IMG/VR virus record: IMGVR_UViG_3300020442_000237 | Span: 1-36,337 of that record | Strand: one strand, 5' to 3' | Origin: a virus | Length of the DNA: 36,337 nucleotides | Shown: in pieces, positions 1 through 24,766 of the stretch | How the letters are laid out: each line of letters begins with the position of its first letter | How positions within the stretch are numbered: the first letter of the stretch is position 1 | Notes under the pieces: model-generated | What the model was told of the DNA's origin: nothing | Databases searched by the model: none | What the model saw: only the letters and a program-made list of their open reading frames with translations | Position numbers and translations under genes: made by a program

Positions 1-861
1 TCTTATTTCATTACCAGCACCAAACTTGTGATTAGCACTACATACTATTTCAGTTGTTCTGTCTTTGTAGATTGTATCACATACCTTATCATCGACTTTA
101 CCTAAGTCTAATGCCTCAATGAACTCCACTGCCTTTTGTGGTATAGGTTTTATAGGATTGTCGTCACAAGGATATATTTCATATTGAACGTTGTATTGTT
201 TATCCCTAACCGGCATAGGGCCGCCTTCAAAACCATTAGGATTTTTAAATCTTATTTCAAACCCTAATTCATCTGCTAGTTCCTTTGCCTTATCCATTTG
301 ATGTTCGTTATGTTTGAACTTTAAAAACTCCCATATACCTTTAGCTCCTGTCGCAGAATATGATTTCATATTAGCCCATACTTTCTTCCATTGTACATTA
401 CGTCTATAAATGTGATTAGTATCTTCCAAACCATCTACAGAAAATATTACATAGCTATTGCTATTTGTAGACAGTCCTAATTGATACCAAAATTGTGTAC
501 CTTTCATACCTCCATTGGTATTAATTTGTATGGTAGGTGATTGTATTGTGGTTTTGTTGATGTGATCAAGTATAGGAATAATATGAGGACAAGTGCCAGG
601 GTCTCCATAATCACCAGCAAATGTCCAGAACTTTATTTGTTGTATAAAGTCTACAGGAAAATGTTCTTTGAATTGTTCTAGTGTGTAATATCCTTCTTGA
701 ATATTAGGATTTAGATTAGGACTAAAATTATTATAACGTGGACACCAAGGACAAATGGAATTACAGAGCGTGCTCAGTTCTAAGTGCACGCTCCGTAGGT
801 TCTCGTAATCCCAATTACTGTTTCTTTGTTCGCTTGGCTCTTGTTTTTTTAGGTTTGACAT
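1..861 (-). CDS. Radical SAM enzyme, 3' end beyond the window
   Basis: The first 287 codons are visible and the gene runs off the window edge. A CxxxCxxC iron-sulfur motif (C33, C37, C40, in LCNSICPWCPR) marks a radical SAM enzyme, which cleaves S-adenosylmethionine to start radical chemistry. The spacing excludes QueE, whose cysteine motif is different. Later segments include IQINTNGG and VIFSVDGLEDTN, typical strands of the radical SAM barrel. Further cysteines near the edge (in YPCDD, KVCDT and IVCSA) hint at an auxiliary cluster domain, but that part is cut. I chose the ATG at 861, which overlaps the preceding gene by 47 nt; a GTG at 789 is an alternative that would still keep the cysteine motif. 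Substrate unknown. Similar proteins occur in marine T4-like phages. Confidence 0.85.
   Translation of the reverse strand, partial: MSNLKKQEPSEQRNSNWDYENLRSVHLELSTLCNSICPWCPRYNNFSPNLNPNIQEGYYTLEQFKEHFPVDFIQQIKFWTFAGDYGDPGTCPHIIPILDHINKTTIQSPTIQINTNGGMKGTQFWYQLGLSTNSNSYVIFSVDGLEDTNHIYRRNVQWKKVWANMKSYSATGAKGIWEFLKFKHNEHQMDKAKELADELGFEIRFKNPNGFEGGPMPVRDKQYNVQYEIYPCDDNPIKPIPQKAVEFIEALDLGKVDDKVCDTIYKDRTTEIVCSANHKFGAGNEIR
766..793 (-). repeat. 8-bp perfect inverted repeat (hairpin)
   Basis: GAGCGTGC at 766-773 pairs perfectly with GCACGCTC at 786-793 across a 12-nt loop. It lies just after the stop codon of the 815-1306 gene and inside the start of the radical SAM gene. No T-run follows on the transcribed strand, so it is not a standard intrinsic terminator. 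It could affect mRNA processing or translation near the junction. Confidence 0.5.
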
Positions 862-5634: not shown

Positions 5635-5956
5635 GCCTTTTGCCGTCGAATACACATACGAAATAGAGACCAAAGTCTCCTGTATTATGTACTCTGTGAA
5701 ATACTCCGTCCTCAATAAGTACCAAGTCTCCACCTGAAACTTCAAAACGGTTATCATCTATTTCCATTTCACCACGGCCATTAATAAACATATAGACTTC
5801 TTCTTGTCCTTCGTGTTTATGTCCTGATGTAGATTTACCTGCTGTAAGATGAGTAGAACTAACCACTAATCCTTTTAAGTGCAAGTTATCTTTTACGGTG
5901 TATCTGTCGTCCTCCTTTACAACAACGCCACCTATATCTTTAATCGATACTTTCAT
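5627..5956 (-). CDS. Cupin-domain protein
   Basis: A single-domain cupin of 109 aa. The metal-binding motif is intact: H46 and H48 (GHKHEG), E53 (HxH-x4-E) and a distal H87 (VFHRVHN), with the glycine turns (INGRGEMEIDD, VSGGDLVLIEDG) of the beta-barrel. Small cupins of this kind often act as sugar epimerases, isomerases or oxygenases, but the substrate cannot be read here. I chose the ATG at 5956, which has AGAGGA 5 nt upstream; an in-frame TTG at 5971 has no ribosome site. The gene overlaps the zinc-ribbon gene at its start and the mini membrane gene at its end. Confidence 0.85.
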   Translation of the reverse strand: MKVSIKDIGGVVVKEDDRYTVKDNLHLKGLVVSSTHLTAGKSTSGHKHEGQEEVYMFINGRGEMEIDDNRFEVSGGDLVLIEDGVFHRVHNTGDFGLYFVCVFDGKRHG

Positions 5957-7742: not shown

Positions 7743-8401
7743 TAGTTTATTCCTATATCTTTTAATCCGTTTTCCTCAAATGCCCAGGCGCGTTCCTCAC
7801 ACCATAGACATTCACCACAACGCCCTCTATTTTGCCTCACACAAGAGTGCGTAATTTTGGCAATATCATCTAATATGCCTTCTTCCCATGCTATATCAAC
7901 TATCCAATCTTTTGTATAATCTGCAAAAGGTTGTTTAATAATATTCTCGTATTCTGTTCCCTTCACAAAGTTTCTTTCTGGAGGGCCAAACTTTTTTATA
8001 ATGTGAGGAGCATATGGATTGGCTCCTGTAAATATCACATCACACATACCATAAGCATCTCTCATACCTGAAAGAAGCTGTTGATATAATTCTGACCCTT
8101 CTGGGTCTCTATTGTTATTGTCTACAGTACCGACTTGAATTGGGTGCAGACGTTTAGTTCCAAAACGTCTACATGAGTCCTCTAATACTAACTCTGCGTG
8201 TCTAATTGAACCATCTACTTTTGGTACTGTAAAGGGCTTTATATTTATATCTAATTTGATGCAATACTTATAAACTAAATGCCATAATACTGCACTATCA
8301 AATCCACCACTAACAACAACACCTATAGTCTTGTCGCTTTTATGCCATGGTTTTATGAAGTCAGAATAAAACTTTAAAACTCTTGTTCTATCGTCTTTCA
8401 A
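7742..8401 (-). CDS. QueC-like PP-loop protein (7-deazaguanine synthase fold)
   Basis: The PP-loop ATP pyrophosphatase motif SGGFDS lies at residues 31-36, followed by the helix AVLWHLVYKY. The C-terminus carries a four-cysteine zinc site, C187-x7-C195-x2-C198-x2-C201 (SCVRQNRGRCGECLWC), followed by EERAWAFEENGLKD. This matches the layout of QueC, which converts carboxy-deazaguanine to preQ0. In phages QueC can supply modified guanine for DNA or RNA. No QueD, QueE, FolE or DpdA partner is visible in the window, so the host would have to supply precursor, or the protein does related amidation/adenylation chemistry. At 219 aa it is near QueC size. It overlaps the upstream gene by 14 nt. Confidence 0.75.
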   Translation of the reverse strand: MKDDRTRVLKFYSDFIKPWHKSDKTIGVVVSGGFDSAVLWHLVYKYCIKLDINIKPFTVPKVDGSIRHAELVLEDSCRRFGTKRLHPIQVGTVDNNNRDPEGSELYQQLLSGMRDAYGMCDVIFTGANPYAPHIIKKFGPPERNFVKGTEYENIIKQPFADYTKDWIVDIAWEEGILDDIAKITHSCVRQNRGRCGECLWCEERAWAFEENGLKDIGIN

Positions 8402-19564: not shown

Positions 19565-21074
19565 GCATCTGTTTCATTCTTTTACGAATGTTATCTCCAG
19601 ATACAGGATTTGAATAGATTCCTTTACCCGCTTTCATTTGTTTTTTCTGATGGTCGACGTATTGTTGACCAGCTTGTTGTAAAGTATCTTTTACTCTACC
19701 TACTCCTCGTTTAACTAAATTAGCGATGCTTTCGTCTAAGTCTAAATTAGTAACAATTTGCTTTTGTTCGGACCAATCTTTTCTGACATATTCCTTACCA
19801 CCAGGACCTATATCAGTTACTTTTGTTTTGATAGGTTTGTTTGTTTTAATCTTTAACAATCTTTTCTTTTCTGCTGCGTCTGTTGCAAGTCTTTTCATTG
19901 CACCCTCACTTCTTACAGGAGGATTTGTCATTGATGCTTTGTTCTTTTTATTCCAATTAGCCTTATATTCTGGTGTTTGTCTTTCAGGATACTTCTTCCT
20001 TGTTTTAGGATTCTCAGCATCAGGATGTCCTTTCTGAATAGCAAATGCTATACCTGTAGGACCTCTTCCTTTTTCGTAATTTTCTTTCTGTACGCCTTTA
20101 CCTTTAGACATTGCTAAACCTTTACCACGCTGTTGTAGTTTATCTCTGTCGCTGTGTTGTTTGTTGTACTGTTTATCTGATGTGTACCCTTGGTGATAAG
20201 CATTTTCTATATCTTGTCTACTAGGTGTTGTCTTTTTAAGATCTGAATATTGTTTACCTGCTTTCTTTTGGTAACTAGAAATAGTTTTTGGTGATAATTC
20301 TTGTAACTCTACTTCCTCTTTAGCGACTTTTTTCCAACCACCGCCTCTCTTTTTATACCATTGTACTGCCCAGCCATTAGCATAAGCACTTGGATAAACA
20401 TCAAATTTAGATCTTGCTGCTGCCTTTGCTTTCGACCACAATCCAGGATTTGTAGGTTTGTTTTCTTCTTTTAGGCCTGCTCTCGCTTTTGCCATACCCT
20501 TACGTCTTTTCAAAGTGTCTTTGTCATATTTGTCATCAACAAATTTTTTGTTCATGCCACTGAATGTACCGGGAGTCTTTTTATTACTCCTATCCATTTG
20601 CCTTTGAAGATAGTCTCTCATATGCTCTTTACCTGAGACGTCTTTTCCTGCCTTAGCAATATATCTTTTCTTAAGGGCATCTGAGATTTCAAATATACTT
20701 TGTTCTTTCATTTCTTTTTTACCACCTTTACCGTAAGTTATACAAGGATCTTGTCCACAACCACAGTTCTTTTTCTCTTCCTCAACCTTTTTAGTCTCAG
20801 GATTATCGTGATCGTAACCTTGTTTATTTAATCTATCATGATCTTCTTTTTTCTTGGCCCAAACTTTTTTATCACCTTTGTACATCCAATGAGCTTTGTA
20901 TTCTTCTTTTTCCTCTTCAAATGTCTTTTTAACGTAATCAGGCATTTTCATAAAACCAGTTTTCATAGCCTTTTCGTTTTCTTTTTTACGTTGTTTTAAT
21001 AGATTGCTGGAAACAGGTTTCTTTAATGGTCTACCTGATGCTAAATCTTCTCTGAATGTAGTAAAGTTTTTCAT
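19542..21074 (-). CDS. Mosaic virion-type protein with DUF5872-like domain
   Basis: The 510-residue zero-frame product is lysine-rich. It has a CGCGQDPC cysteine cluster near residue 105, a DYLQRQMDRSNKK segment near 155 and a DUF5872-type domain at 207-250 (NPGLWSKAKAAARSKFDVYPS, then YANGWAVQWYKKRGGGW). A LSPKTISSYQKKAGKQYSDL module lies at about 260-280 and disordered basic regions follow. These modules recur in different combinations in marine T4-like virion proteins. The annotated end is probably not the natural end, because a -1 shift at A9 would add 48 residues and join the next gene by overlap. The start abuts the 2OG-oxygenase-like gene. Confidence 0.75.
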   Translation of the reverse strand: MKNFTTFREDLASGRPLKKPVSSNLLKQRKKENEKAMKTGFMKMPDYVKKTFEEEKEEYKAHWMYKGDKKVWAKKKEDHDRLNKQGYDHDNPETKKVEEEKKNCGCGQDPCITYGKGGKKEMKEQSIFEISDALKKRYIAKAGKDVSGKEHMRDYLQRQMDRSNKKTPGTFSGMNKKFVDDKYDKDTLKRRKGMAKARAGLKEENKPTNPGLWSKAKAAARSKFDVYPSAYANGWAVQWYKKRGGGWKKVAKEEVELQELSPKTISSYQKKAGKQYSDLKKTTPSRQDIENAYHQGYTSDKQYNKQHSDRDKLQQRGKGLAMSKGKGVQKENYEKGRGPTGIAFAIQKGHPDAENPKTRKKYPERQTPEYKANWNKKNKASMTNPPVRSEGAMKRLATDAAEKKRLLKIKTNKPIKTKVTDIGPGGKEYVRKDWSEQKQIVTNLDLDESIANLVKRGVGRVKDTLQQAGQQYVDHQKKQMKAGKGIYSNPVSGDNIRKRMKQMQKKRLTK

Positions 21075-22433: not shown

Positions 22434-22696
22434 TATAAGTAATCCTCTATTATGTAGTTCAAACCTGTTGAAGATCTAAACTCAATTTTGTTATTATCCT
22501 CGTCAATAAAAATTAATAACTTTTCTTTTCTAGTTATAATTTTCTTGGCAATATAGTTTTTATCATCACTATCGCCATATACTTTATTGAAAGATACAGT
22601 AACTTTATACCGTGTAATGAATAGGGAAAGTATCCATTCCCACATTCTTTTGAGGCCGTTAATTATACCTCTTCCTATTTTCTTCAGCAATTCCAT
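22433..22696 (-). CDS. Small protein with amphipathic/membrane N-terminus
   Basis: The 87-aa protein has an N-terminal segment, LKKIGRGIINGLKRMWEWILSLFITRYKVTV, that alternates basic and aromatic residues and could insert in or lie on a membrane. It is followed by two beta-like segments (NYIAKKIITRKEKLLIFIDEDNNKIEF). No family recognised. Its place directly before the spanin pair makes a lysis or membrane role worth testing, but it lacks the clean helices of a holin. It overlaps the adenylyltransferase-like gene by 13 nt. Confidence 0.6.
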   Translation of the reverse strand: MELLKKIGRGIINGLKRMWEWILSLFITRYKVTVSFNKVYGDSDDKNYIAKKIITRKEKLLIFIDEDNNKIEFRSSTGLNYIIEDYL

Positions 22697-23541
22697 CTAC
22701 GTCTAGCTGCCTTGCCCCTCTCACCTGTCCATCCTCTAGACCTTGCACAAAATGACTTACGTCTTTTGGCTGCTTTACTACCTGGCTTTAGTTTACTAGG
22801 CGGTGTTGTTACTGCTGTTTTTAATTTACTTCCAGGATTTGCTCTACGATGTGCAGCTACACCTTTTGCTGTAAGTCCAGCGCCATCTTCAGTAGGCCTT
22901 TTATGCCCCTTTGCATCATCTCCTGTTTTGTTTGGTTTGTCGTCCTCTGATAAGAACTCCATAAAAGTTTGCATGGTTGACTCCTGTAACCCTTGTTTCG
23001 TTGCGTCAAATAACTTTCTCGCATGGTCATCGTTGTGGTTAGGGTGTAATCCAGCTTTGAAAGACTTATAATCATTATTAGTAGCATGAGCTCTCATTTT
23101 AGTACCACTTATACCTGCGACACCTTCAGCATCTGGGTCTCTATGTCCTGCTGAAATAACTCGTATCTTTTTATAATTATATTCTTTCCCATTATATTTT
23201 GCGGAAAGTTGTTGAAATTGTTTTACCCTGTCACTACCAACTACCATTGTTGCGTGTGTATGTCCTTCCTGATTAAACTTTTTAAGTTGTGCTAGAAAGT
23301 GAGGGTGTTCTTTTGTAGAATGTGTAAAGTTTACCTCAGGATGCACATGCTGTAGGTATTCTTTTTTGTGATTATGGTGTAAAGGATCTTTTTTCTTGTT
23401 TTGTGAATGACTAACCACAACGGCATGATTGGCTCCAATCTCTTTAGCATGAGAATGAACCTTATCAATAACCTTAGAGTGTCCAGCAGTTGGAGGATTC
23501 ATCCTACCAAATGAGAATACTATGTGTTTATCTTCTGCCAT
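22684..23541 (-). CDS. HxGH-type nucleotidyltransferase fused to DUF6321-like tail
   Basis: Residues 8-30 (VFSFGRMNPPTAGH) carry a TxGH form of the HxGH nucleotide-binding motif, and ISGTKMR at 144-150 matches the ISxTxxR loop; both mark the adenylyl/cytidylyltransferase superfamily. After residue 190 a basic linker leads to a C-terminal cysteine module (SFCARSRGWTGERGKAARRRWNC) of the type seen in other virion-type proteins here and in marine T4-like phages. The fusion suggests an enzyme carried in the particle or bound to DNA; that is inference. The ATG has no Shine-Dalgarno and lies 6 nt after the stop of the 16-residue cysteine peptide, so its translation is probably coupled. Confidence 0.8.
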   Translation of the reverse strand: MAEDKHIVFSFGRMNPPTAGHSKVIDKVHSHAKEIGANHAVVVSHSQNKKKDPLHHNHKKEYLQHVHPEVNFTHSTKEHPHFLAQLKKFNQEGHTHATMVVGSDRVKQFQQLSAKYNGKEYNYKKIRVISAGHRDPDAEGVAGISGTKMRAHATNNDYKSFKAGLHPNHNDDHARKLFDATKQGLQESTMQTFMEFLSEDDKPNKTGDDAKGHKRPTEDGAGLTAKGVAAHRRANPGSKLKTAVTTPPSKLKPGSKAAKRRKSFCARSRGWTGERGKAARRRWNC

Positions 23542-23547
23542 AATTAA

Positions 23548-23598
23548 TTATCCGCAACAAGTGCAAGAGCAACATTCACAACATTTACATTTACTCAT
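23548..23598 (-). CDS. 16-residue cysteine-rich micropeptide
   Basis: The reading frame encodes MSKCKCCECCSCTCCG and then TAA. Eight of 16 residues are cysteine, arranged as CxCC, CC, CxCC. It has an ideal AAGGAG ribosome site 6 nt before the ATG, better than most genes nearby, and lies in the gap between the ligase-like gene and the adenylyltransferase-like gene. The next gene starts 6 nt after its stop and lacks a ribosome site. It could be a metal- or thiol-binding peptide, or a leader that couples or senses translation. No family is claimed. Confidence 0.7.
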   Translation of the reverse strand: MSKCKCCECCSCTCCG

Positions 23599-23608
23599 GT
23601 CTTTCTCC

Positions 23609-24766
23609 TTATTTGTTATCCTTGTTAAAATTAAGAGCACTAAACTCTTTTCTATCTACAAATTTAGAAGGCCTGCCGTTTCTAATAGCAACAAATCCTT
23701 CTGGTTTAACTGTTTGACCATCTACTTCATGTCCGAACTCTGAGCGCTGTGACATTGTCTTTGTTAGTATGTCCTTTGCTGCTTGAAGATGTTTGTGCAT
23801 CTCCATAGGTCCTGTAAAGTGGTCCTTATTCTTATTTATATGTCCTATAGTGTTATCCATAGTAGTTTGATGACGCTGTTTTGCTGCGTCCGTTTTAACT
23901 TTATCTATCTTTTTCTGATGTGCTGCACTATGATGTGCTACAAAACCTTCGTGAGAATGCTGTTCTCCTGTTCTTACAGTATGGTTAATATATGTTTTTA
24001 ATGCCTGATGATGTTGTAAAACTGTATCGTGATGTTCATCAGGTGTATTTTTAAAATGTTGTACTGCCTGATCCAAGTGATGTTCTACTTGTTTTCTGTC
24101 TTCTTGTGTATAATGATGCTGTGAAGTATCGTGGTGTGTACTCATCATATGAACATCTGGATGGCTAGCAAAGTGGGACATATCAGCTCCATGTACTGCT
24201 TTCATATCCTTAATTGTTTTACCTTCGTATTGTGTATGTACAGCAAGTCCTAATTTGGATTTCATTGCTGCTTTACCATGTTCTGAATCGTGTGGTACAT
24301 GATAAGTTATCGTATTAGGTGTAAATTCTACTCTATTACCATTTTTCTTGACATCACCTGCGTGCATAATATCTGCCTGATATACACCTTGTGGTTTTAT
24401 TTTGTGTGCATGATCTAATGCCGCTTTTAATTTTTCTACTAAACCTGGTGCATGTCCATGATTCTTTTCTATGTCCTCGTGCGTATGGTTAATTTTAGGG
24501 TTTTTATTGAATGCTGATTTGGATGCTACAAAAAACTTTTTATTCTCAGGGTGTTCCCCAAATACAACAGCGGGACTGCCATCGTATTTTATTGTAGTCT
24601 GTGTATCTGATTTAATGCCTTGAAGTTTGTGATGAACGTCTCTGACTGTATGGAAAGCATGTCCAAAACCTTCTTTACCAGCATGCAAGACATGATCTTC
24701 TACGTGTTCTAGATGTTTTAGTTTATCTTCTTCTGTGGCTTCTGTTAAAAAATCTTTAAATCGCAT
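23609..24766 (-). CDS. Ligase-like nucleotidyltransferase (DUF6267-type)
   Basis: The features of the covalent nucleotidyltransferase (DNA/RNA ligase) superfamily are present in order: motif I K60-Y-D-G (TIKYDGSPAVVFG), a motif III-like strand VYQADIMHAG (128-137), motif IV EGFV (356-359) and motif V KFVDRKEF (368-375). The region between III and IV is a long histidine-rich helical insert. This matches a family of marine T4-like phages that I recall as DUF6267. K60 would be the residue that becomes adenylylated; the substrate (nick, RNA end or protein) is unknown. It is preceded by both an early and a late promoter. Confidence 0.8.
   Translation of the reverse strand: MRFKDFLTEATEEDKLKHLEHVEDHVLHAGKEGFGHAFHTVRDVHHKLQGIKSDTQTTIKYDGSPAVVFGEHPENKKFFVASKSAFNKNPKINHTHEDIEKNHGHAPGLVEKLKAALDHAHKIKPQGVYQADIMHAGDVKKNGNRVEFTPNTITYHVPHDSEHGKAAMKSKLGLAVHTQYEGKTIKDMKAVHGADMSHFASHPDVHMMSTHHDTSQHHYTQEDRKQVEHHLDQAVQHFKNTPDEHHDTVLQHHQALKTYINHTVRTGEQHSHEGFVAHHSAAHQKKIDKVKTDAAKQRHQTTMDNTIGHINKNKDHFTGPMEMHKHLQAAKDILTKTMSQRSEFGHEVDGQTVKPEGFVAIRNGRPSKFVDRKEFSALNFNKDNK

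Follow-up and report, generated by a model that had tools for sequence, protein, structure and literature searches.

A stretch of viral DNA of 36,337 nucleotides (the window), from an IMG/VR virus record, contains a gene for a peptide of only 16 residues, half of which are Cys, and we find that this is a real, conserved phage gene. Related tiny genes are present in dozens of IMG/VR viral contigs, where they encode peptides of 14–24 amino acids that are roughly half Cys and fall into two Cys-spacing classes. The genomic link between this apparently undescribed family and genes for iron-sulfur (Fe-S) cluster assembly is recurrent, but not universal. Since marine viruses often carry it together with such genes, the peptide is probably metal-binding rather than a regulatory leader, and we give about an even chance to its being a thiolate metal binder that works with phage Fe-S assembly proteins as a carrier or buffer.

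Table 1. Features of the window referred to in the text.
Feature	Position	Strand	Basis
Class I Cys-rich micro-gene MSKCKCCECCSCTCCG, 8 Cys of 16 aa	23548..23598	-	translation and conserved variants
Shine-Dalgarno AAGGAG	23605..23610	-	6 nt before the micro-gene ATG
DUF6267 protein, 385 aa, upstream boundary of the slot	23609..24766	-	PF19782 E=7e-98; phrog_455 positions 18-337
CTP_transf_like nucleotidyltransferase + DUF6321, 285 aa, downstream boundary of the slot	22684..23541	-	PF01467 E=3.7e-5, PF19846 E=1.5e-10
Radical-SAM-like protein, cut by the window edge, Fe-S motif CNSICPWC	1..861	-	PF04055 E=3.6e-6, below curated cut-off

Translation of the minus strand from 23598 to 23548 gives MSKCKCCECCSCTCCG followed by a stop codon, and both translation and coordinates agree exactly with the frame, the eight Cys and the AAGGAG spacing given in the original prediction. 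The DUF6267 gene upstream ends in a stop codon (23611–23609) that shares bases with the Shine-Dalgarno (SD) sequence, and the micro-gene stop, ending at 23548, is separated by 6 nt from the ATG of the following gene at 23541. This gap is as originally described, although the gene itself, first taken to be adenylyltransferase-like, is corrected to a CTP_transf_like nucleotidyltransferase (PF01467) fused to DUF6321. The ORF is very short, and unanchored Cys patterns match repeats too, as would be expected of a chance ORF or an assembly artefact, but we regard the probability of either as practically negligible. ORFs of 10–25 aa with at least seven Cys occur at a rate of 0.003 per window in 300 Markov-shuffled windows (10.9 Mb in total), compared with one, having eight Cys, in the real window, and many independent contigs keep the peptide together with its SD. 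Conservation across independent contigs settles the question and leads us to reject the chance explanation, bearing out the proposal that a real gene lies here below gene-calling size.

Class I, to which the window peptide belongs, has the spacing C-x-CC-x-CC-x-C-x-CC, and class II the spacing MC-x-C-xx-C-x-C-xx-C-x-C, as in MCKCKDCKCNPCKCK. An ATG-anchored Met-x-Lys-Cys-x-CC-x-CC pattern matched 17 stretches in viral contigs and a second anchored spacing pattern matched 26, the contigs being partly shared between the two. Although the anchored patterns did not demand it, the genuine class I matches run on into x-C-x-CC, and Cys12, 14 and 15 are found in them outside the positions that the patterns required. 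Class I variants, among others MQKKCKCCECCSCTCCG, MSKCKCCKCCNCTCC, MTKCNCCKCCSCTCCG, MNTKCECCSCCNCTCC and MNSKCQCCSCCSCDCCE, are present in about 27 distinct contexts, and a GGAG-type SD (AAGGAG or GGAG) precedes the ATG in most to nearly all of the genuine class I relatives; a search with the Cys spacing permuted, as a control, produced six matches, none of them with an SD. One locus, L147, was retrieved by a longer unanchored pattern, unlike the ATG-anchored class I relatives. Among the matches listed for the class II pattern, most are real short ORFs from phage contigs of marine type. Viral and bacterial collections were also searched with unanchored 8-Cys patterns, and the matches listed are mostly TGY repeats, with no convincing bacterial homologue among them. 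A tblastn search of cultured phages with a 23-aa member gave no match, low-complexity masking weakening this search, and no stand-alone member was found in whole-record scans of 11 named phages (nine cultured or isolate genomes, one single-cell record and one fosmid-derived record). The sole related motif in these 11 phages is the class II-like CGCDPCQC at about 5780–5803 of Synechococcus phage S-BM3 (L466), within the span of a larger annotated gene, and a further class II-like sequence, CGCSPDCPHCNC, lies inside an ORF of 1139 aa that precedes the peptide in L098. Because such motifs are located within the spans of larger phage genes, the Cys peptide may also occur as a domain of these.

The Cys codons of class II are under selection, and the amino-acid sequence is the level that is conserved. 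Circularity was avoided by retrieving loci with only the IscU protein as query, without using Cys, and a Cys-rich peptide is encoded downstream of iscU in 30 of the 80 loci, including all 22 of the closest relatives. The 30 class II cores, placed on the iscU tree, have accumulated 12 synonymous third-position T/C changes and no amino-acid changes at their six Cys codons, and six of the seven other positions of the core vary many times. If about one fifth of changes are taken as synonymous, the 12:0 outcome is of the order of 4e-9 under neutrality, with the caveat that outside the close clade a locus that had lost a Cys would go unrecognised. At five class II loci downstream of iscU (L509, L515, L519, L524 and L530) the ATG before the first Cys is replaced by an I, T or V codon and all six Cys are kept, so that the predicted peptides must begin either at an upstream ATG within iscU or at a non-standard start.

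In the genomic context of the window, the peptide is a presence/absence cassette in a single slot. The two boundary genes match separate stretches of phrog_455 (positions 420–611 for the nucleotidyltransferase, which also matches phrog_3041), and for this reason are probably an old pair that is fused in other phages and split here. The slot is empty in four relatives (L006–L009), in which the nucleotidyltransferase starts at or beside the DUF6267 stop codon and is 76–84% identical to the window enzyme, yet has no peptide. It is occupied by the peptide in the window, L004, L026, L477, L096 and L097, by NfuA and then the peptide in L002, L003, L005, L087, L090, L093 and L095, and by the same two genes in reverse order in L016; in L010–L012 it holds a small ORF and a class II peptide, class II thus replacing class I. 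Outside the slot the peptide adjoins PhoH, terminase, portal, tail and unknown genes, and the nucleotidyltransferase is not its constant partner. We also observed MRFKDFLTEA-, MKNFTTFRED- and MQTFMEFLSED-like motifs in the window (start at 24766, start at 21074, and at about residues 190–200 of the nucleotidyltransferase, directly before DUF6321), which we take to resemble T4 capsid-targeting sequences; DUF6321 occurs without the nucleotidyltransferase in many contigs. Elsewhere in the window, a QueC-like protein (7745..8401, minus strand) is encoded beside ribonucleotide reductase and ThyX, and a 7-deazaguanine pathway is possible.

One reading put forward originally was that the peptide is a leader, whose translation would respond to Cys supply or thiol state and thereby regulate the enzyme encoded next. 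Such a role would suit a short ORF that is crowded with Cys, has a strong SD and lies 6 nt ahead of an enzyme gene lacking an SD of its own, and amino-acid-responsive leader peptides (attenuators) are similarly short ORFs, rich in one amino acid, just ahead of an enzyme. The reading is not supported, however, because the close relatives L006–L009 have no peptide at this position and because the peptide is found beside many other genes, preceding a variety of unrelated ones and often following its likely partner (NfuA or IscU) instead of preceding it. In further contrast to attenuators, the RNA shows no structure (fold z=+1.78), the Cys and the frame are conserved with synonymous drift, consistent with protein-level selection, and the peptide is present in stand-alone contexts. 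No terminator-like site was found at the peptide/enzyme junction. The enzyme does lack an SD here, but as relatives without the peptide start it at or next to the DUF6267 stop codon, this is not a peculiarity of the locus. In the absence of a constant downstream gene and of RNA structure, and with SD-less enzymes in peptide-free relatives too, we reject a leader or attenuator as highly improbable. The expected conservation of the frame upstream of homologous enzymes gives a mixed picture: it holds for the nearest relatives only and fails in the close homologues L006–L009, but the peptide is conserved far more broadly in other places.

The neighbouring genes identified include those for IscU (PF01592, E=1.6e-50) and NfuA (PF01521 and PF01106). 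All eight NfuA contigs carry the peptide, in its class I form, and NfuA is present in none of 24 enzyme-bearing contigs without the peptide. When contigs were scanned over their whole lengths (about 0.95 Mb with the peptide and about 0.81 Mb of controls), 11 of the 26 contigs with the peptide had genes for IscU, A-type carrier (ATC) or NfuA, compared with none of the 23 controls (Fisher p=2.7e-4, a guide only, since contigs of a clade are not independent and the certainty is overstated). Such co-occurrence is notable because Fe-S assembly genes are rare in marine viral genomes, being reported in only 16 of 1,352 (PMC5332604). NfuA is absent from the window, a 36-kb fragment; its close relative L477 (G101), 87.6% identical to it over 13 kb, belongs to a contig of 59.6 kb in which genes for IscU and an A-type carrier stand in tandem. 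Two T4-like class I contigs, 170 kb and 82 kb long, have the tandem as well, and in these contigs it follows a gene whose product, judged by sequence, looks like a major capsid protein. A tandem of IscU and A-type carrier was seen in the structural region of the T4-like marine phages L579, L580 and L582, after the probable major capsid gene. In one lineage group of class II, the peptide frame opens within the 3' end of iscU; in another, it is found some 0.35–0.4 kb downstream of iscU. No Fe-S assembly gene was found in about half of the class II contexts, or in several long contigs that have class I or the slot (89 kb, 72 kb and 104 kb), and many T4-like phages have iscU without the peptide, leading us to reject the idea that it accompanies every phage IscU. 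Radical-SAM genes were also rejected as a discriminator, being common in peptide and control contigs alike; the radical-SAM-like protein in Table 1 is an Fe-S enzyme of the window phage.

The free variation between invariant Cys, the tiny size and the neighbouring genes together suggest thiolate metal binding, and the Cys array and the recurrent Fe-S neighbourhood fit that part of the original prediction which proposed a metal- or thiol-active peptide. We infer translation, metal binding, the metal concerned, partner contact and benefit to the phage along the following lines. The peptide would be translated independently from its own micro-gene, its Cys thiolates would bind metal, and its partners would be the phage-encoded NfuA, IscU and A-type carrier. 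It could act as a small iron or Fe-S carrier, or alternatively as a thiol-metal buffer, such that iron and clusters would be kept available to phage and host Fe-S enzymes during infection. The narrower proposal, that in several marine phage groups these half-Cys peptides are dedicated iron or Fe-S carriers for NfuA, IscU and A-type proteins, is possible but somewhat unlikely.

We consider an Fe-S-linked carrier or buffer the most likely function, with a general micro-metallothionein next. The latter would buffer or scavenge Zn, Cu, Cd or Fe, its Fe-S neighbours coinciding with it through common accessory slots, and we regard it as fairly unlikely. Metal-thiolate sites are usually built from CxC, CxxC and CxCC arrays, such as the peptide has, and many class II copies have terminase, portal or tail genes as neighbours and no Fe-S genes; against this, three different Fe-S assembly proteins are recurrently linked to the peptide in several phage groups, and its longer members have no metallothionein match in Pfam or PDB at E<=10. 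A takeover peptide, with host thiol, IscS/IscR or redox systems as its target in place of metal carriage for the phage, is improbable: small phage proteins often bind host factors, and its co-expression with an Fe-S scaffold would be consistent with the host ISC pathway being diverted, but freely varying residues between the Cys fit metal ligation better than a specific protein interface. It is decidedly improbable that the peptide is a virion component, cross-linking or metallating head or tail proteins, for example. Its gene is found in late structural operons, with DUF6267, terminase, portal and tail genes among the neighbours, and some phage tail hubs require an Fe-S cluster (PMC10276861), but there is no single constant structural neighbour and the peptide moves between unrelated contexts.

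Members of both classes have a dense CxC/CxxC array with few or no aromatic residues. In this, and in their very high Cys content and small size, they resemble the metallothioneins of animals, fungi and bacteria (SmtA, BmtA and MymT), which share the CxC/CxxC/CxCC arrays, and the class II spacers are Lys-rich. They differ in being only 14–24 aa long, in having no His in nearly all members, in being phage-encoded, and in that their metal binding is predicted. The peptide may work like a metallothionein, but would at most be a candidate member of that group: searches with members of at least 20 aa gave no homology to a known metallothionein family. Class I has two CxxCxxC registers (Cys4-7-10 and Cys6-9-12-15), and the CxC and CxxC pairs of class II do not give this spacing. 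Minimal ferredoxin-type maquettes are designed CxxCxxC Fe-S binding peptides of about 16 residues; class I resembles these in its registers, and the family in its association with Fe-S carriers, but the phage peptide is a natural gene product with twice as many Cys, and its cluster binding is a prediction only.

Pfam and PDB sequence searches with submitted members of at least 20 aa gave no match of any kind at E<=10, the 16-aa window peptide being too short for these tools, and in PHROGs the members of sufficient length had no meaningful match (best E=7.9). The Fe-S genes described as auxiliary metabolic genes of marine phages (PMC5332604 and PMC9038755) are from the same kinds of phage, with T4-like and podovirus-type genomes, and belong to the same IscU and ATC families, but the Cys peptide is not itself an assembly protein, and in the passages searched neither paper has any mention of Cys-rich peptides. 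More broadly, the non-subscription literature yielded Fe-S genes in marine phages and no Cys-rich phage peptide.

Phage genes for Fe-S assembly were recognised in ocean viromes more than ten years ago and, to our knowledge, still lack a mechanism. If they have a tiny Cys-rich partner that gene callers miss, viruses would carry a fuller metal-handling module, and the partner would offer a directly testable target; if the Fe-S carrier proposal is true, no gene-encoded metalloprotein component of a virus-borne pathway for Fe-S assembly would be smaller than this peptide. A phage gene encoding as few as 16 residues can be stable and under selection, present across phage groups and swapping spacing variants within one slot.
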